Part shown: piece after piece, positions 74 through 56,593 of the stretch
Numbering within the stretch: the first letter of the stretch is position 1
Layout of the letters: the number at the start of each line of letters is the position of its first letter
Source: a virus
DNA: 64,000 nt
IMG/VR virus record: IMGVR_UViG_3300020477_000014
Span: 124,001-188,000 of that record
Strand: one strand, 5' to 3'
Translations under genes and position numbers: made by a program
Notes under the pieces: generated by a model
What the model was told of the DNA's origin: nothing
What the model saw: the letters and a program-made list of their open reading frames with translations, nothing else
Databases searched by the model: none

Positions 74-134
74 TTAATGATTGAAGTGGCAAATAACAGA
101 CCATTTTTTAGACATCTTAAAAGGAACCATAATC

Positions 135-3122
135 ATGTCAGTGAAAAGTTTTAAATTTGTATCTCCTGGAGTGTTTATTCACGAAATAGATAATTCCTTT
201 GTGCCGAAATCGGCGGAAGCCATTGGTCCCGTTGTTATCGGGAGGGCTGCCAGAGGGATATCAATGCAGCCGGTAAAGGTGGAGTCGTATTCTGAGTATG
301 TTGAAATGTTCGGCGATACGGTACCTGGATTTGCCGGTGGTGACATTTCCCGAGATGGAAATTTCCAATCTCCGATGTATGGAACTTATGCTTCGAAGGC
401 TTTTTTGCGGGCTAATGTGGCTCCATTAAATTATATTCGTCTTTTGGGACAACAAAGCACAAACGCTAGTGCCGAGGGCTACGCTGGGTGGCAAACTGAA
501 AACAATGTTAATCCCCAACTAGACTCAAATGGTGGCGCCTATGGGATGTTCTTGTTTAAAAGCAGTAGTGCCACCCAAGGGAAACTCCTGGGTCAGGTAA
601 ATTTGGGAGAAGGACGCCTAGGGGCTATCTTTTATGTTAACAATTCGGCATCGTTACAGTTGTCGGGCAACTTTATTTCGGGTACCCGAGGCGACTGGGA
701 CGCGAACAACGCCGGCCAAGGAATCGGAACAGTTATCTATAATCACGATGAGGGTGACCGCCTTTTTACGGTTGTTCTTACTTCATCGAATGGAACGTAT
801 AATGAGAAAGTCCAATTTAACTTTGATGACACTTCGGATTTTTACATCAGGAAGAGAATCAACACCAATCCTCAATTGACTAGTGCTCCTGGTTCCTTTT
901 ATCCCACCAGTTCTCACAAGCCGTATTGGTTAGGGGCGACATATGATCAATTTTTACGCGAAGGTGGTTATATCCCGGGCAAAAATTTGTCCGCAGTTAT
1001 ATTGCCCTTGGCAAATACCGCAAGTACATCCATCGGACCTCATAACTTGCGCGAAGCATCTAGAGAGGCTGCGACTGGCTGGTTCGTTGGTCAAGATACT
1101 GGTCCTCACGGCACATCCTTCGTAATTCAACATTTAAAGAACAACAAACTATTTCGCCTTAAAGGTCGCGGTCACGGAGAATGGCTTCATAGGAATCTGA
1201 AAGTTTCTATTGAGAAAATACGAGTTTCTAATTCCTCTCTTACCGACTACGGTACATTTTCGGTAGTTTTGCGCAGCCTGCTGGACACAGATAACAATGT
1301 GCAGGTAGTTGAGAGATTCGATAACTGCACATTAGATCCATCTTCTCCTAATTTTGTTGCACGAAAGATCGGCGATATGTATCTTAAGTGGGATGACAAC
1401 AAGAAAACACTTCAACAGGTAGGGGAGTATCCTAATAATTCTCGCTTTGTGTATGTTGAATGTAATCCGGATGTGGAAGCCGGCGCAACAAACCCGGCGC
1501 TTTTGCCAGTAGGGTTTTTGGGAATTCCTAAATTTACCAACGTGACAGACCTCTTCGCCGGAGCAGTTGTGGGAGCAGGCGTCGGCAATAATTCTCTAGC
1601 GAACAAGTATATTTATTGGACCACCACCGCCGACGGGTTCATTGGACTAGGCATGCCGGGTACCCTCCCCAGGACACATCTCAACAGATCAATATTGAGC
1701 GGCGGCGCCGGGACAACCAACGTCGTAGCTGGCTCCGGACACCATTCGGCGTCTTTGATGGCATTTCCCTCTAGTTCTTATAGACAGAACGCCTCCGATG
1801 GTGGACTGTCAGATCCCACAAATGCTTATTGGGGATTTAGTACTACACGGACTGTCGACTCGAGTCGAAGTGATCATAGTGTTATGGATTTGGGGAACCT
1901 GCTTAAAAGCGACTTTAAGGATGATTGGTCGACCTATGATGCCGCGACTGACGGAATCGACCCATGGGACTTGATTTTCACCTTACAAGATCTTTCGGCT
2001 TCGGGAGGTGTTTCGGGAACAGGGACATATCATTGGGTTAGCGGCTCTCGACGAAATGAGCTAGCTGTCCCCTTGAACAAGACTTTGGAAAACGGATATG
2101 GACAATTTACTGCTCCCTTCTTCGGAGGGTTTGATGGATTTAATAATCGAGTACCCGATCCTCTTTATAATATGGGGATGAAAAATGCTACCGAAACCAA
2201 CAACTCTGCTTATTACACATGGAAGCGCGCAATTGACACCATAGCGGATCCTGAATATATTAATATGAACTTGTTGGCCGCGCCAGGATTAACTAAAAAT
2301 AGACTAACGAGACATATGATTAATGTATGTGAAGATCGCGCCGATGCCATGGCATTGGTTGATTTGGGAGATGTTTACAAGCCTCCACACGAAGAGTACT
2401 TCTCAAACAAGTCACAGCGTGTAGGTGCTGGACCCACACAAGTGGCCAAGAGCCTCAAAAATCGCGCGATTGATTCCAGTTATGGATGTACGTTCTATCC
2501 ATGGGTTCAGACTAGAGATGAGTCTTCCGGACAGTTAGTGTGGATCCCGCCCTCTGTGGCGATGATGGGGGTTCTTGCAAGCTCTCAAGCTAAATCGGAC
2601 GTTTGGTTTGCCCCTGCTGGGTTTAATCGCGGCGGATTAACTGATGGTGCGGCTGGAATTCCAATTATCAATGTGACTGAAAGGGTGGTATCTAAAGATC
2701 GAGACACACTATATGAAGCACGGATTAATCCAATTGCTTCTTTCCCCTCTACAGGGCTTGTAGTTTTCGGTCAAAAAACACTCCAGGAACGACAATCTGC
2801 GCTTGACAGAATTAATGTTCGACGACTTGTTATTTATCTTAAGAAGCAGATTTCTATCTTAGCATCACAAGTATTGTTTGAGCAGAATGTTCAAGCTACA
2901 TGGAATCGTTTCCGTGCTTTGGTTGAGCCTTTCTTGGCGAATGTAAAAGTTCAGTTTGGTATTACGGACTACAAGTTGATTCTTGATGAATCAACCACTA
3001 CTCCTGACCTTATTGACCAAAACATTATGTATGCCAAGATTATGGTTAAGCCTGCGCGCGCAATCGAGTATATTGCAATCGACTTCGTAGTTACCTCTAC
3101 TGGTGCTTCGTTTGACGATTGA
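135..3122 (+). CDS. tail sheath protein (gp18-like)
   Basis: This 995-residue protein is the contractile tail sheath, which polymerises around the tail tube and contracts to drive the tube through the host envelope. The N-terminus (SPGVFIHEIDNS, then a VGPVVIGRA-like stretch) is typical of T4-family sheaths. The C-terminal 150 residues carry the conserved sheath polymerisation domain, with the INVRRLVIYLKK segment and an ending like other sheaths. It is longer than T4 gp18 (about 660 residues), so the middle probably holds extra surface domains. A TTG at 81 opens the frame earlier, but ATG 135 follows AAGGA at 121 and gives the normal sheath N-terminus. The tube gene follows, as in T4. Confidence 0.9.
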   Translation: MSVKSFKFVSPGVFIHEIDNSFVPKSAEAIGPVVIGRAARGISMQPVKVESYSEYVEMFGDTVPGFAGGDISRDGNFQSPMYGTYASKAFLRANVAPLNYIRLLGQQSTNASAEGYAGWQTENNVNPQLDSNGGAYGMFLFKSSSATQGKLLGQVNLGEGRLGAIFYVNNSASLQLSGNFISGTRGDWDANNAGQGIGTVIYNHDEGDRLFTVVLTSSNGTYNEKVQFNFDDTSDFYIRKRINTNPQLTSAPGSFYPTSSHKPYWLGATYDQFLREGGYIPGKNLSAVILPLANTASTSIGPHNLREASREAATGWFVGQDTGPHGTSFVIQHLKNNKLFRLKGRGHGEWLHRNLKVSIEKIRVSNSSLTDYGTFSVVLRSLLDTDNNVQVVERFDNCTLDPSSPNFVARKIGDMYLKWDDNKKTLQQVGEYPNNSRFVYVECNPDVEAGATNPALLPVGFLGIPKFTNVTDLFAGAVVGAGVGNNSLANKYIYWTTTADGFIGLGMPGTLPRTHLNRSILSGGAGTTNVVAGSGHHSASLMAFPSSSYRQNASDGGLSDPTNAYWGFSTTRTVDSSRSDHSVMDLGNLLKSDFKDDWSTYDAATDGIDPWDLIFTLQDLSASGGVSGTGTYHWVSGSRRNELAVPLNKTLENGYGQFTAPFFGGFDGFNNRVPDPLYNMGMKNATETNNSAYYTWKRAIDTIADPEYINMNLLAAPGLTKNRLTRHMINVCEDRADAMALVDLGDVYKPPHEEYFSNKSQRVGAGPTQVAKSLKNRAIDSSYGCTFYPWVQTRDESSGQLVWIPPSVAMMGVLASSQAKSDVWFAPAGFNRGGLTDGAAGIPIINVTERVVSKDRDTLYEARINPIASFPSTGLVVFGQKTLQERQSALDRINVRRLVIYLKKQISILASQVLFEQNVQATWNRFRALVEPFLANVKVQFGITDYKLILDESTTTPDLIDQNIMYAKIMVKPARAIEYIAIDFVVTSTGASFDD

Positions 3123-3191: not shown

Positions 3192-3785
3192 ATGGCATTC
3201 TGGTCAGAAAATTTCGGTCAAAATAGTACTTTGAAGGATCCGAAAAGAAAATTTAGATTTACTGTTGAATTTCAAGGAATTCAATCGGCACAAGGGGGTG
3301 CTACTTTGTGGTATGCCAAAACAGTCACAAAGCCCGGATTTACTATCAATACGGCAGAGCACAAATTTTTGAATCATACGTTCTTTTACCCAGGATCTGT
3401 TTCTTGGCAAGAGATTAGTTTAACGTTGGTGGACCCAGTTCAGCCTGATATGACCGCAACTCTATCCGATATCGTGGTAGCTAGTGGTTATACGCCGCCC
3501 ACTGATTCTACAACAGCTTCTTTGACTAGTATTTCTAAAGCCAAAGCAGCCACATCGTTGGGGACCGTGTATATTCAGCAGATAGATTCTAATGGTAATC
3601 CCATTGAAACATGGACTCTGTGGAACTCCTTTATTCAAGATCTTAAATTTGGAGACTTGGCATACGGAGACGACGAATTGAATGAACTTTCTCTGGTCCT
3701 TAAGTATGACTGGGCTCGAGTCGAAACAACCAATCCTTCAGTCGCCGTCAATGGTACACAGGGCACTGAATTTTTCAACGTATAA
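3192..3785 (+). CDS. tail tube protein (gp19-like)
   Basis: The 197-residue protein is the inner tail tube subunit that stacks as hexameric rings inside the sheath. It has the length and pattern of T4-family gp19: an N-terminal RFTVEFQG strand, a central loop with PGFTINTAEHKFLNHTF, and the SWQEISLTLVDP strand seen in tube proteins. The ATG follows AAAAGGAG with good spacing. It lies directly after the sheath gene and before the tail-chaperone gene, the standard order for contractile phages. Confidence 0.88.
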   Translation: MAFWSENFGQNSTLKDPKRKFRFTVEFQGIQSAQGGATLWYAKTVTKPGFTINTAEHKFLNHTFFYPGSVSWQEISLTLVDPVQPDMTATLSDIVVASGYTPPTDSTTASLTSISKAKAATSLGTVYIQQIDSNGNPIETWTLWNSFIQDLKFGDLAYGDDELNELSLVLKYDWARVETTNPSVAVNGTQGTEFFNV

Positions 3786-3810: not shown

Positions 3811-4677
3811 TTGTCACGTAATAAAGATAGGCTTGGTGGTGGGTTTTCCCATCCACACAATGCCCCAACTCCGCCCCAGCAGGTGAACTCTCCTGGCACA
3901 AGTGGTGGTTTTTCATTTGTGGTGCCTACAGAATTTGTAGAACTTCCTTCAAAGGGGAAGTTTTATTCCCCTGATCACCCCCTGTACAACCAGGAGACCG
4001 TCGAGGTTAAGCAAATGACAGCAAAGGAAGAGGATATGCTAACGTCTCGTTCTCTGTTAAAAAAGGGTGTTGCATTAGATCGAGTTCTCCAAAGTGTGAT
4101 AGTGGATAAAAACATTAACCCCGACACGCTGCTAATTGGAGATCGGAATGCGCTCATTGTGGCGATGCGAGTTTCTGGATATGGAAGCGACTACAATACG
4201 AGCGTAACTTGTCCCGCTTGTTCGGATGCCCAAAAATATGATTTTAACTTAAACGACATTACCATCTTTCACGGGGAAGATGAAATTGAAACTGGCGTGG
4301 TGCCGCTAGAAAATGGAATGTTTGGCACAGTATTGCCACAAAGCGAGCTTCATGTGGTTTTTCGATTGTTGAATGGTCATGACGAAAAGCGGATGAGTAA
4401 GCGTGTGGAAAATGCTCGCAAACGCAACCAACAAGAAAAGCTTGTAACATCTCAATTGCGTAATATTTTAGTTTCTGTAAATGGAGATGCATCTTCTGAG
4501 GCGCTCCAATATGTTATCGAAAACATGCCAAGTGGAGATGCGCGGCATTTGCGCCTAATGTATAAGCTTAGCGCACCAAACCTAGATATGACTCAGCACT
4601 TCAATTGCTCATCTTGTGGACACGAACAGGAATTGGAGGTTCCGCTGACTGCGGACTTTTTTTGGCCTGACCGATGA
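3811..4677 (+). CDS. tail assembly chaperone / gp26-like baseplate hub protein (zero-frame product)
   Basis: The 288-residue product resembles the T4 baseplate family that includes gp26: a proline-rich N-terminus, a region around PSKGKFYSPDHPLYN, and two Cys-X2-Cys pairs (CPAC near residue 134, CSSC near 270) that could bind one zinc. It begins at TTG 3811 after GAGGTG. It sits between the tube and tape-measure genes, where long-tailed phages encode the G/GT chaperone. Seven T's near its end (4657-4663) lie in an overlap with an open +1 frame, so a longer fused product is likely. Assignment to gp26 is by motif and context and is not certain. Confidence 0.65.
   Translation: MSRNKDRLGGGFSHPHNAPTPPQQVNSPGTSGGFSFVVPTEFVELPSKGKFYSPDHPLYNQETVEVKQMTAKEEDMLTSRSLLKKGVALDRVLQSVIVDKNINPDTLLIGDRNALIVAMRVSGYGSDYNTSVTCPACSDAQKYDFNLNDITIFHGEDEIETGVVPLENGMFGTVLPQSELHVVFRLLNGHDEKRMSKRVENARKRNQQEKLVTSQLRNILVSVNGDASSEALQYVIENMPSGDARHLRLMYKLSAPNLDMTQHFNCSSCGHEQELEVPLTADFFWPDR
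4657..4663 (+). promoter_or_regulatory. putative +1 (or -2) ribosomal frameshift site, T7 run
   Basis: The zero frame reads GAC TTT TTT TGG. Skipping one T gives GGC CTG ACC GAT and enters a frame that stays open to 4909. That frame opens only at 4649, after a TGA, so the switch must happen within about 28 bases, and the homopolymer is inside that window. The position before the tape-measure gene matches known G/GT tail-chaperone frameshifts. Confidence 0.6.
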
Positions 4678-4909
4678 GTATACAGAAAATGTATACGAGC
4701 AATTTTTCTTCTTAAAATATTCAGGTGGCTGGTCGTTTTCGGAAGCCTATAATTTACCTATTGGGCTCCGCAAATGGTTTGTAGATAGGCTAATTAAGCA
4801 ACTAGAATCTGAACAAGAGATGGTTAAATCTGCCTCACGCGGCGGAAGTGGTCGGCGCCAAACTTTATCAGCGGTGAATCAACCTCCCACTCCACCTCAA
4901 TACAAGTAA
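4664..4909 (+). CDS. C-terminal extension of the tail assembly chaperone, reached by frameshift
   Basis: These 81 codons have no ATG, GTG or TTG near their beginning but encode a protein-like sequence: an acidic start (LTDEYTENVYEQFF), then YSGGWSFSEAYNLP, then LRKWFVDRLIKQLE, then a basic and proline-rich tail. The tryptophan-rich centre and amphipathic helix resemble small T4-family proteins encoded just after gp26-like genes. Fusion to the upstream frame through the T7 run would give a protein of about 365 residues instead of 288. The alternative is an unusual start such as CTG. Confidence 0.6.
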   Translation, partial: GLTDEYTENVYEQFFFLKYSGGWSFSEAYNLPIGLRKWFVDRLIKQLESEQEMVKSASRGGSGRRQTLSAVNQPPTPPQYK

Positions 4910-4975: not shown

Positions 4976-7624
4976 ATGGCAGACGATCCCGCAGCGCTCG
5001 GTAAAGCAGCCCAGGCATACCGCGCCCAAGCAGAAGCATTAAAGAGCCTAAATGATGCTTTAAAGGAAAACCAACAGGCACTGCAAGATCTTCTTGACCA
5101 GAAAAAGCTTAGCGCTGGATCTGTTACTGATGCCGAGGAAATTAATGCGCGAAAACTGGTTGAGTCGAAAAGAGAACAAATAAGACTACAGAAAGAGTTG
5201 TTAGACTCTCAGGAACTAAAAGCTTCCAGAGACGCGAATCAATTAATATTGGAACAGGACAAGATTGACAAACTTAATTCTCAAGCTGAAGCTGCTAACA
5301 ACATGTACACCAAGAGAGCTATTCAGCAGGCAGCAGATCGCGCCGCAGACGAGAGAAAAGAAAAAAGCATTCAATGGCAGATAGATAATGAACAAGAACT
5401 CACTGAAGAGGAAAAAAAGAAATTAGACATAGCTTTAAAGAATCAACAGATAGACCAAAAGAGGCCACAATATCTTCGTGAAGCTAAAGAACTTAGCAGT
5501 GGTATTGCACAAGTTTTTCAGTCATATGCTTCTCATCCGTTTTTTAATGTAGACAATATGCTTAAAATTACTGGCGCACTGCGGCAGCCTGGGCAACTCT
5601 TTAAGAGTCTTGGGACCGGCATAATTACTGGACTCCTTAATTCAGTAATCGGCTTGGTATTCGAGATAAATAAGTCTGAGGCTGCTTTTTTCAAAGCAAC
5701 ACGCGCTTCTAAGAGTTTTCAAGTATCTATGACAGAGGTATACAAGGTGGCGCGCCAAAACGTTGTCTCTCTTAAGGATTTCTATAAAGCAACTACAGAT
5801 TTGGTATCCACTTTTACTGATTTTACTCAAATTTCAACGCGAGCAGCACAATCTCTAGCTCTCACTACCTCCACTATGGTTCAATTGGGGCACAGTTCTC
5901 AAACCTTGGCGAAAGATCTGCAAATTCTGTCTGTGGGATTTGGTATGATACCACAGGAAGCCGAAAAAACTTTGCGCGAGTTAGATGCTTTTGCAACAGA
6001 CATAGGGGTTCCGCCCAGCCAACTTACTGAGCAATTTGCTACTATGGGAGACGGCTTGACGAAGTTGGGTAAAGATGGGGTGAGTGCTTTTAAGGAATTG
6101 GCGCGAGTATCGAAGATCACTGGTTTCGAAATGGGAAAAATCCTCCGTATGACTGATCGCTTTGACACTTTCGAAGGTGCCGCAACCGCGGCTGGTAAAC
6201 TGAATGCTGCTTTGGGTAGCAATTTTGTTAATGCCATGGACCTAATGGTTGAAACTGATCCTGTAAAAAGATTTGAAATGATGAGAGGATCATTGCTTGA
6301 TGCAGGGCTCGAGTTTGACAATATGTCCTATTATCAACGAAAGTTTATCGCTGAATCACTAGGTTTAGAAAGCGTGAGTGATTTAGCTGCCATGATGCGG
6401 GGCGATTTAGAGTCTCTAGATGCAGAAATCGGCAAAACATCTGCTGATTATGCCGAGATGGCAAAAAACGCACGTCTCTCTGCTAATTTCCAGGAAAGGC
6501 TAAACGCCATTATGCAAGGAATGATACCAATCTTGCGACCTCTTATCGAGGGCATTGAAATGCTTTTGTATAATTTTGAAGAGGGAACGAAATCACAAAG
6601 TGATTTCTCAGACGAAGCCCGGGCTCTTCAGCCGACTCTTAATAGTTTAGCCGGCGCCTTTAAGTTTTTTATTCAAGTTGCCAAAATTGCTATTGATTAT
6701 TGGCCATGGATAGTGGGCACTATGATCGCCATGAAAGCTGCCTCGCTTGGCGCCGCCTTTGGGCTGTGGTCCGTGAGTCCGGCTGTGGGAGGTATTACCG
6801 TTTCAATTGGTAAATTGGGAGCAGCCTTAACTACTTTGGGCGGCGCGGTTCTTGCTTCGGGAGGCACATTGCTGATCGGTCTCGGCGTTGTTGTTACTCT
6901 GTTGGGATCATTGGGGTATTTAGCTTCTTCTGTGGGAGAGGCGTTTCAGGGAATGGCGGCTCTTTTTAGTTCTTTTGATGGCGCCGGGTTGAGAGATCTT
7001 TCGTCAGCCGTGGGAGATGTTTCCAGTTTGGATTATACAACGGCTGCCGGGAATCTAACATTACTATCGGGCGCCATGGAAGATGTGTCGGCAGCCATGA
7101 TTGACTTAGGGGTGGGTGCTGGTGTCGGAGATATCTCCACATTGATATCGGACGCGTCTAATATGGACACCTCGCGATTTACTATTTTTGTAAATGAAAT
7201 GGTGCGCCTAAAAGACACTCTTAATGAATTGCCTGGCTTCGTGCACGATGACCCGACGGGCCTAGCCGCTAGCGCAGCCATTACAGCCCCTATTGCTGCT
7301 AGAGCTTCGGCAACCTTGTCTACAACACCGTTGCCGCACGGAACAGAGGCTCGAACAGATATTCAAAGAGCACTACAGACTCCCGCAGTGGCGGCGACGG
7401 TAGTATCTCTTTTGCATGCTCAGACTAAAATTCCAACTTCTGGAACTGACAAACCTCAAGAGATTGTTGTTAATGCTCACCTCCCCGTTCTCTTGGACGG
7501 TCAACAAATTGGCGCCGCGGCTCATACCTTTAGGCAGACCGTGCAACAACAAAGCAACACAGCGTTCGCGCTCGGCGGCGCCCCGCCGCCAGTGATGGTG
7601 ATGCCAAAAGGAAAAAATAACTAA
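4976..7624 (+). CDS. tail tape measure protein (gp29-like)
   Basis: This 882-residue protein probably sets tail length and occupies the tube lumen until DNA ejection. Residues about 10-190 are highly charged coiled coil rich in Glu, Lys and Gln. The middle is helical. Residues about 580-660 hold hydrophobic, Gly/Ala-rich segments that could cross a membrane, as in many tape-measure proteins. It follows the chaperone with its frameshift, the canonical order, and starts at ATG after AAGGAGG. It is longer than T4 gp29 (about 590 residues). The name rests on context and composition. Confidence 0.65.
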   Translation: MADDPAALGKAAQAYRAQAEALKSLNDALKENQQALQDLLDQKKLSAGSVTDAEEINARKLVESKREQIRLQKELLDSQELKASRDANQLILEQDKIDKLNSQAEAANNMYTKRAIQQAADRAADERKEKSIQWQIDNEQELTEEEKKKLDIALKNQQIDQKRPQYLREAKELSSGIAQVFQSYASHPFFNVDNMLKITGALRQPGQLFKSLGTGIITGLLNSVIGLVFEINKSEAAFFKATRASKSFQVSMTEVYKVARQNVVSLKDFYKATTDLVSTFTDFTQISTRAAQSLALTTSTMVQLGHSSQTLAKDLQILSVGFGMIPQEAEKTLRELDAFATDIGVPPSQLTEQFATMGDGLTKLGKDGVSAFKELARVSKITGFEMGKILRMTDRFDTFEGAATAAGKLNAALGSNFVNAMDLMVETDPVKRFEMMRGSLLDAGLEFDNMSYYQRKFIAESLGLESVSDLAAMMRGDLESLDAEIGKTSADYAEMAKNARLSANFQERLNAIMQGMIPILRPLIEGIEMLLYNFEEGTKSQSDFSDEARALQPTLNSLAGAFKFFIQVAKIAIDYWPWIVGTMIAMKAASLGAAFGLWSVSPAVGGITVSIGKLGAALTTLGGAVLASGGTLLIGLGVVVTLLGSLGYLASSVGEAFQGMAALFSSFDGAGLRDLSSAVGDVSSLDYTTAAGNLTLLSGAMEDVSAAMIDLGVGAGVGDISTLISDASNMDTSRFTIFVNEMVRLKDTLNELPGFVHDDPTGLAASAAITAPIAARASATLSTTPLPHGTEARTDIQRALQTPAVAATVVSLLHAQTKIPTSGTDKPQEIVVNAHLPVLLDGQQIGAAAHTFRQTVQQQSNTAFALGGAPPPVMVMPKGKNN

Positions 7625-43010: not shown

Positions 43011-43023
43011 TTGTGAGGTGCAA

Positions 43024-44595
43024 ATGAGTAGAGAATACGGCAACAACCGAGATCTCCAACAGCGAATCTTGAACGGAGCCAATGTTTTAGCAGACAACGT
43101 AGCTTCCACACTTGGACCACGTGGTCGCAATGTTTTGTTGCGAGAGATAGGAAAACAACCCTTTATTACTAAAGATGGGGTTACGGTCGCACATTTTGTG
43201 GAACTGAGCGATCCCATTGAAGATGCAGGCGCGCAAATTATAAAACAAGCTGCTATCGAAACCAACAACAAAGCCGGCGACGGCACTACAACCTCTACTG
43301 TGTTAGCACGTGCTATTTTGCGTGAATCGCAGCCACATTTGGCATCGGGCGTTTCTCCGATTGAATTACAGCGCGGTATTGATTTGGCAACTCGGGCCAT
43401 ATCTTCTCTTTTGAGTGAAAGCTCGACACCCGTTACTACGGCTGAAGATATTGAGCATATTGCCACTATTTCTGCTAACAACGATCAAACTATTGGCAAA
43501 CTTATTTCTTTGGCTGTTGATCGCGTAGGTCAAGATGGCTCTATCACCATTGAAGAGTCTCGTTCTATGGACACGACGCTGGATGTGACAGAGGGGTTTC
43601 GATTAGCTGCGGGGTTTTGTGCTGGCGCATTTGTTACCGATGAACGCCGCAACATGATGGTTCACCAAGATCCTCTTTTTCTTATTACTGATTATAAGAT
43701 TAGCACAGTTGAGCAAATCTTACCTGTGTTAGAGATGGTTGCTCGCGAGGCGCGACCATTAATTATTGTAGCGGAGGATATCGATGGACAAGCATTGGCA
43801 GCGTTAATTATGAATTCAATGCGGGGAAGTCTCAAGGTGGCTGCTATCAAGGCTCCTGAGTATGGAGAGGATAGACGCAACACTCTCAACGATCTTTCTA
43901 TTTCTACGGGAGCAGTCTTTGTAACACGAGAAAGCGGTAAAAAACTTACAGATGTAAAGATGGCAGATTTAGGCACGGCGAAATATATCGAAAGCACCAA
44001 AAGAGCTTCGACTATTGTAGGTGGGAATTGCGATTTTAAGGCTGTTGAGGCGCGTATAGAGACCCTTAAGAACATTATTGGTACCTTGGACAACCTTCAT
44101 GAATGCGCGCGCATACAAGAGCGTATCGTGCGTCTTTCTTCGGGCGTGGCTGTTGTGCGTGTTGGGGGTGCGACTGAGGTAGAAATGACCGAAAAGAAGC
44201 ATCGAATCGAAGATGCACTAGAGGCTGTTCGTTCTGCTCAAGAAGAGGGAGTAGTCACCGGTGGGGGAGTGGCGCTTTTGAGGGCGGCAGCCAAGCTAAT
44301 AATAGAAACTTCCAACCGAGAACAAGCTATTGGCGTGGAGATAGTCAAGGTGGCGTGTAGAGAGCCGTTACGTCAGATGGCAATGAACGCCGGTGAATCC
44401 CCGGATTTAGTAGCAGCACAAGTGATGGCTTCTGAGAGGAATATTGGGTGGGATTTTCGAGAGCGCAAACTAACTGATCTTATGGAAAGGGGGATCATTG
44501 ATCCCGTTAAAGTTACACGCACCGCTTTGGAAAACGCTGCTAGCTGTGCAGGTACTCTTATTACTACTAACTATGGAATTATACAGACAGGATAA
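43024..44595 (+). CDS. groL: chaperonin GroEL (Hsp60)
   Basis: The 523-residue protein is a full group I chaperonin that folds proteins inside an ATP-driven double ring with a GroES lid. Motifs: TLGPRGRNVLL, TKDGVTVAHFV, the ATPase loop AGDGTTTSTVLA, and IEDALEAVRSAQEEGVVTGGGVALL with the catalytic Asp. Bacterial GroEL is about 548 residues and ends in a GGM repeat; this one lacks that tail and ends GIIQTG. It begins at ATG 43024 after GAGGTG; GTG 43018 is a less likely start. It has its own strong promoter and pairs with the GroES at 26845. Confidence 0.93.
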   Translation: MSREYGNNRDLQQRILNGANVLADNVASTLGPRGRNVLLREIGKQPFITKDGVTVAHFVELSDPIEDAGAQIIKQAAIETNNKAGDGTTTSTVLARAILRESQPHLASGVSPIELQRGIDLATRAISSLLSESSTPVTTAEDIEHIATISANNDQTIGKLISLAVDRVGQDGSITIEESRSMDTTLDVTEGFRLAAGFCAGAFVTDERRNMMVHQDPLFLITDYKISTVEQILPVLEMVAREARPLIIVAEDIDGQALAALIMNSMRGSLKVAAIKAPEYGEDRRNTLNDLSISTGAVFVTRESGKKLTDVKMADLGTAKYIESTKRASTIVGGNCDFKAVEARIETLKNIIGTLDNLHECARIQERIVRLSSGVAVVRVGGATEVEMTEKKHRIEDALEAVRSAQEEGVVTGGGVALLRAAAKLIIETSNREQAIGVEIVKVACREPLRQMAMNAGESPDLVAAQVMASERNIGWDFRERKLTDLMERGIIDPVKVTRTALENAASCAGTLITTNYGIIQTG

Positions 44596-55735: not shown

Positions 55736-55820
55736 GGGAGTGTGGTGGAATTCGGCAGACACATCGGACTTAAAATCCGTGGCTTTTTTAAGCGTGAGGG
55801 TTCAAATCCCTCCATTCCCA
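55736..55820 (+). tRNA. tRNA-Leu (anticodon UAA)
   Basis: The acceptor stem GGGAGTG (55736-55742) pairs with CATTCCC (55813-55819), with one G-U pair. The anticodon loop CTTAAAA gives UAA; the long variable arm GCTT...AAGC marks a class II Leu tRNA; the T arm is GAGGG-TTCAAAT-CCCTC. CCA is not encoded. The lowest base pair of the anticodon stem is U-U. It reads UUA (and UUG) leucine codons. A single-promoter transcript continues into 55859. Confidence 0.9.
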
Positions 55821-56517: not shown

Positions 56518-56593
56518 GCGGGTGTAGCTCAGTTGGTAGAGCATCACGTTGCCAACGTGAATGTCGTGGGTTCGAGTCCCATCACCCGCTCCA
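56518..56593 (+). tRNA. tRNA-Gly (anticodon GCC)
   Basis: The acceptor stem GCGGGTG pairs fully with CACCCGC (56583-56589), the D loop has AGCTCAGTTGGTAGAGC, the anticodon loop TTGCCAA gives GCC, and the T arm is GTGGG-TTCGAGT-CCCAT. A discriminator T and encoded CCA end it at 56593. All arms are canonical. The minus-strand protease gene ends four bases later. Confidence 0.95.

Follow-up and report, generated by a model that had tools for sequence, protein, structure and literature searches.

The stretch of DNA analysed here (the window, 64,000 nucleotides) comes from a virus record of 189,712 bases in which tail genes follow one another in the order sheath, tube, gp26-type gene and a gene for a protein of 882 aa. 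The features of the locus are the following.

81–3122, + strand: contractile tail sheath gene, upstream (ORF from TTG 81; phrog_23, E=1e-64)
3192–3785, + strand: tail tube gene, directly 5' of the gp26-type gene (phrog_4542, E=1e-22)
3811–4677, + strand: zero-frame gp26-type gene, 288 aa, TTG start and TGA stop, putative TAC-N ('G-like')
4635–4640, + strand: GGAGGT, a Shine-Dalgarno-like hexamer and possible stimulator, 19 nt 5' of the shifting codon
4635–4660, + strand: possible hairpin GGAGGU.CCGC(UNNNN)GCGGACUUUU (RNAalifold), with a 3' arm that extends into the slippery run and covers its first Us
4649–4909, + strand: +1-frame ORF, in which the C-terminal domain (TAC-C, 'T-like'), recognised by conservation and homology, begins at GGC 4664
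4654–4668, + strand: predicted shift site GAC_TTT_TTT_TGG_CCT, with (T/C)TT_TGG in 158 of 163 +1-group loci
3811–4906, + strand: predicted frameshift product TAC-NC ('GT-like'), 365 aa, from the recoded translation
4976–7624, + strand: putative tape measure gene, 882 aa, so named by position and length

The coordinates given in an earlier reading of the sequence alone (the sequence-only reading) were all confirmed. The zero frame ends at the TGA at 4677 and the +1 frame stays open between 4649 and a TAA at 4907–4909, with ATG, GTG and TTG all absent before residue 58 and hence no usable start. A run of seven Ts at 4657–4663, read GAC TTT TTT TGG, lies in the overlap, and skipping one base there joins the two frames into exactly 365 residues with the junction ...TADFF-GLTDEY.... 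The -1 frame closes about 40 nt or less past the stop in the window-clade loci listed and the second domain lies in the +1 frame; the locus does not have a canonical X_XXY_YYZ site with its second domain in the -1 frame. In simulations with the base composition of the window, a single frame stayed open for at least 78 codons in about 1% of cases, so one sequence proves little alone and conservation has to decide. The hexamer TTT_TGG, which is present in frame in four other genes of the window, is for that reason not sufficient alone either.

The overlapping frames lie 3' of the tail tube gene and directly 5' of the putative tape measure gene, the position of a G/GT locus. The 882-aa gene gave no meaningful match to PHROG or Pfam, a phage sequence search with its protein gave no match, and its comparison with the gene annotated as tape measure in Flavobacterium phage immuto revealed no similarity; in L083, however, the gene at the syntenic place carries a tape measure annotation. 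Elsewhere the phage encodes a GroEL-type chaperonin (window 43018–44595; phrog_5725, E=5e-134), and a tmRNA gene with the tag ANNNNHYDEVRLAA lies in the same phage genome (L264 18710–19047; G000:C1:18710-19047), which has two tRNA genes only, tRNA-Leu(UAA) at 55736–55820 and tRNA-Gly(GCC) at 56518–56593 in window coordinates.

Conservation of the second frame and of the predicted shift site

With the zero-frame protein as query, 80 viral contigs were retrieved (55–61% identity), and a Flavobacterium phage homologue retrieved 80 more distant loci; both sets, with the window and Microcystis phage Mel-JY01, make up the 163 +1-group loci. A profile search of genome contigs independently found a third set of 12 further readable loci. 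In 80 of 80 viral-contig homologues the tail domain occupies the +1 frame, with an overlap between this and the zero frame, and all 12 readable genome contigs are likewise +1, 11 of them with TTT TTT TGG CCT. The +1 frame extends 72–105 codons beyond the site in 146 loci, with 12 others cut by contig ends, and the TTG start of the window gene is TTG in all 70 distinct homologues. Homologues were also present on contigs binned as archaeal or bacterial (L279–L281 and the Woesearchaeota MAG contig JABHXC010000041.1, L284), which are probably misbinned phage contigs or prophages. Among 64 distinct window-clade sequences, variation falls on third positions of frame 0 as far as the start of GCG GAC TTT TTT TGG, drops to near zero within these codons, and past the U run falls on third positions of frame +1. 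The second frame is thus conserved, out of frame, devoid of its own start and joined to a conserved slippery site, as at a G/GT locus. Homopolymer indels are frequent in metagenomes, and a sequencing error or a decayed gene split by an indel could in principle produce such a picture in one contig; as 80 contigs, and with them isolate genomes from several groups, show one and the same relation of the frames, this explanation has a negligible probability.

Expression of the second frame as a separate gene, through reinitiation or a non-standard start at CTG 4649, would make use of the invariant GGAGGT, from which the CTG of the window is well spaced at 8 nt downstream. Moreover, in L254 and L259 the domain has its own ATG right after the stop, so that a separate-gene state is viable. 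As a start, CTG 4649 was rejected because it is unconserved, the codon being CCG, CAG, ACG or others in relatives. In most relatives the zero-frame stop is followed within a few codons by a Met, where the window has Thr. Given that this Met is replaced by Ile, Thr or Val in eight of the 64 window-clade sequences, and that the stretch from the site to the first frequent Met has conserved codons for G, L, T/S and Y, a separate start is unlikely. Nor does a separate gene have any need of the overlap and the shift site, which are kept in nearly all other sequences, and we regard this reading of the locus as highly improbable.

The sequence-only reading had proposed an alignment of homologues as a check on the T run, and YTT_TGG proved to be kept in the 158 loci listed above, though some variants break the run. 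The site reads TTT TTT_TGG_CCT in 113 loci and TTT CTT_TGG_CCT in 35; the rarer forms are TTC TTT_TGG (five), TTT TTT_TGG_ACT/TCT (five), TTT CTA_TGG (four) and TTT CTT_TAC (one). The consensus (U/C)UU_UGG, mostly UUU_UUU_UGG_CCU, is nearly invariant, and the second TTT and the TGG are without variation in the 64 distinct window-clade sequences. At every form of the site except TTT CTA, the P-site tRNA could re-pair on UUU one base forward, and at the TTT CTA sites re-pairing from UUU to UUC is possible at +1.

These variants bear on the direction of the shift, which had been left as +1 or -2 and is now narrowed in favour of +1. Within the T7 run of the window itself a -2 shift is formally possible, as tRNA-Phe on UUU can re-pair on UUU two bases back, and the frameshift of phage Mu is -2 (PMC5009743). 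The product would be ...ADFFFGLTDEY..., of 366 aa, the junctions FFG (+1) and FFFG (-2) being one Phe apart. However, in the UUC_UUU_UGG relatives a -2 slip would put tRNA-Phe on UCU, where +1 gives UUU, and the UUU_CUA sites of four relatives and LR756508 are explained by +1 re-pairing from UUU to UUC. A -2 shift is accordingly very improbable. The homopolymer of seven Ts would also suit slippage of RNA polymerase, with some mRNAs lacking one U. This is disfavoured by the relatives with TTCTTTTGG, TTTCTTTGG and TTTCTATGG, which break the homopolymer into runs of at most four and keep the same arrangement, and it appears more improbable still than a separate gene; the run-breaking UUC_UUU_UGG and UUU_CUU_UGG, in turn, still permit a +1 slip.

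Candidate stimulators and the proposed shift

Upstream of the site, GGAGGU is invariant in a 22-row alignment, and the GAG codon of this element is kept in all 70 distinct homologues. The window clade has 82 invariant amino-acid columns, and the wobble position is frozen in only eight of them, one being the TTG start. Six of the eight (GAG, CCG, GCG, GAC, TTT and TTT) fall near the end of the shared part, within its final nine codons and its last eight invariant columns (hypergeometric P of about 2e-6). The frozen GGAGGU element is therefore a possible stimulator. RNAalifold predicts the hairpin listed above from the 22 sequences, and a 75-nt segment of the window folds with z = -4.2. Compensatory changes were not found among its ten pairs in these sequences and L077 disrupts two of the ten, so the hairpin stays a mere possibility. 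Two other candidates were rejected. Stretches 3' of the site have z-scores of about -0.5, which speaks against a downstream RNA structure, and the phage tRNA-Gly(GCC), reader of the new-frame GGC, was dropped as a helper because tRNA-Gly is missing among the six tRNAs of a 194-kb relative in which the site is identical.

The overlap, the frame relation, the conserved site and the shared domain family were observed by sequence comparison. From these we infer a ribosomal shift, and it is very likely that one gene yields two products, TAC-N and TAC-NC, by programmed +1 frameshifting. For most ribosomes translation would end at 4677, with TAC-N (288 aa) as the product. Others, presumably a minority, would pause with tRNA-Phe on UUU 4660–4662, the probable slipping codon, and with the Trp codon UGG waiting in the A site. 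Re-pairing of tRNA-Phe one base forward, on UUU 4661–4663, would replace UGG (Trp) by GGC (Gly) in the A site, and translation in the +1 frame would continue to 4906 to give TAC-NC (365 aa). The chaperone role is likewise a presumption, made by analogy with lambda G/GT, in which case the tape measure protein would be coated with many copies of TAC-N and few of TAC-NC, and the tail tube protein would be recruited by the additional domain of the latter. Put simply, this marine tailed phage almost certainly produces a tail-building helper protein in two versions because some ribosomes move one base ahead at a set position.

Protein family and lineages

The zero-frame protein belongs to the gp26-type family PF12322 (T4_baseplate, E=4e-20), its score of 72.9 bits lying above the curated cut-off of 24.5, and it matches phrog_150 (E=9e-22). 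The zero-frame part and the tail were folded as two separate models. The AlphaFold2 model of the former has a pLDDT of 86.7 and its best match in the PDB, a weak one, is the HK97 tail assembly chaperone 2ob9 (Foldseek probability 0.93, E=0.14, query-normalised TM 0.21); among viral models, many of its fold matches are 'baseplate hub' gp26-type proteins. The tail model is of low confidence (pLDDT 66). DUF6760 was rejected as a name for the tail, the score being under the cut-off of that family, and no mention of DUF6760 was found in the literature searched. What had been claimed of the gene from its sequence, namely a frameshifted tail chaperone placed between the tube gene and the putative tape measure gene, is supported.

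In other phages the second domain is found at the same place in either frame, +1 in SP-15, SagM-GXN1, LIS04 and LR756508 and -1 in RAS14 and cyanophage S-H38. The heptamer U_UUU_UUN is present in 60 of 60 loci of the S-H38 type, and in most cases a stretch resembling GGAGGG, GAGGG or GAAGG lies about 10 nt 5' of it. In the cyanophage-type gp26 genes (L091 2806–3719 and L092–L152) this -1 site is conserved and a Shine-Dalgarno-like sequence precedes it by about 10 nt; at such loci an annotated 'hypothetical protein' of 38 aa is the end of the frameshift domain. In hhalign comparisons the +1-group and -1-group tails are related (91%, E 1e-6). T4 gp51 matches the -1 tail with its C-terminus (94%, 1e-7) and T4 gp26 with its N-terminal part (97%), and T4 gp26 also matches the cyanophage protein (98%); no significant match resulted when gp51 was compared directly with the +1 tail. 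T4 gp51 thus combines a gp26-like domain with a tail akin to the -1 tails of cyanophages, relations that independently reproduce the published view that the short and long chaperones of T4 are two genes.

In an unrooted tree of 84 proteins the +1 loci occupy one broad side and the cyanophage-type -1 loci another, next to T4. L254 and L259 fall within the +1 side, switched to a separate ATG-started gene, and in LR756511 the second domain may also be a separate gene (TAATG). RAS14 (-1) forms a long branch of unsure placement; as a query against viral contigs it found no relatives, and SP-15 found only itself. It is a tentative proposal, and one held with less than even confidence, that YUU_UGG, with a sense Trp codon waiting, is a distinct bacterial +1 signal driven by GGAGGU or the hairpin, and that a change of direction between -1 (U_UUU_UUN and a Shine-Dalgarno-like sequence) and +1 has taken place in the family without altering the two products. 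The gp26 family lends itself to a comparison of natural routes to a chaperone pair, by +1 or -1 shift, by separate genes or by gene duplication (T4 gp26/gp51). In phage annotation the second domain is usually split or lost, and in SP-15, immuto and S-H38 it is annotated as a truncated 'hypothetical protein' starting inside the domain; recognition of the site corrects the tail gene map for a large group of uncultured phages.

Comparison with known systems

Frameshifting in G/GT tail chaperone genes is textbook knowledge, and the predicted device is that of lambda G/GT (TAC-N/TAC-NC), a kind already known. Lambda G/GT shifts -1, whereas the shift predicted for the window gene is +1, and its proteins, unlike those of lambda G/GT, are of the gp26/T4_baseplate family. 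In T4-like phages, Vladimirov, Gautam and Davidson are said to have assigned the TACs and reported frameshifting in 2022 (Virology 566:9-15); these TACs and the window gene belong to the same protein family. A 2016 review had named T4 as an exception to G/GT frameshifting (PMC5009743). Two papers citing the 2022 report mention poly-T -1 signals and separate short and long genes in T4-like phages (PMC10885494, PMC12846349). The remark in the sequence-only reading that T4-type phages are not commonly described in this way is, going by these papers, partly outdated.

For the HF1-group haloviruses and HSTV-2 a +1 TAC shift has been proposed, with UUU as shifting codon at TTT-CGC (PMC7230728, PMC5009743). 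A +1 shift on UUU between the tail tube and the (here putative) tape measure genes would be common to haloviruses and window, but the former have archaeal hosts and CGC in the A site and the latter has UGG. Streptococcus phage vB_SagM-GXN1 (L086, about 4200–4220) reads UUC_UUU_CGU at its +1 junction, and its UUU_CGU also occurs in UCC_UUU_CGU, a +1 motif that the title of PMC3498833 names. In prfB (release factor 2) the +1 shift occurs at CUU_UGA_C, with CUU slipping onto UUU (PMC5009743). The +1 groups would resemble it in that CUU or UUU slips +1 onto UUU, and the CUU_UGG_C of 35 relatives is one base from the prfB site. However, the A site of prfB holds a stop codon and that of the window the sense codon UGG, and the Shine-Dalgarno sequence of prfB lies 3 nt upstream whereas GGAGGU lies 19 nt upstream, so the site is not of the prfB type. 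To these systems the present comparison of sequences would add a deep +1 lineage beside the cyanophage-type -1 loci, switches to separate genes and the frozen GGAGGU element, and the UUU_UGG +1 site with this upstream element may be a new variant.
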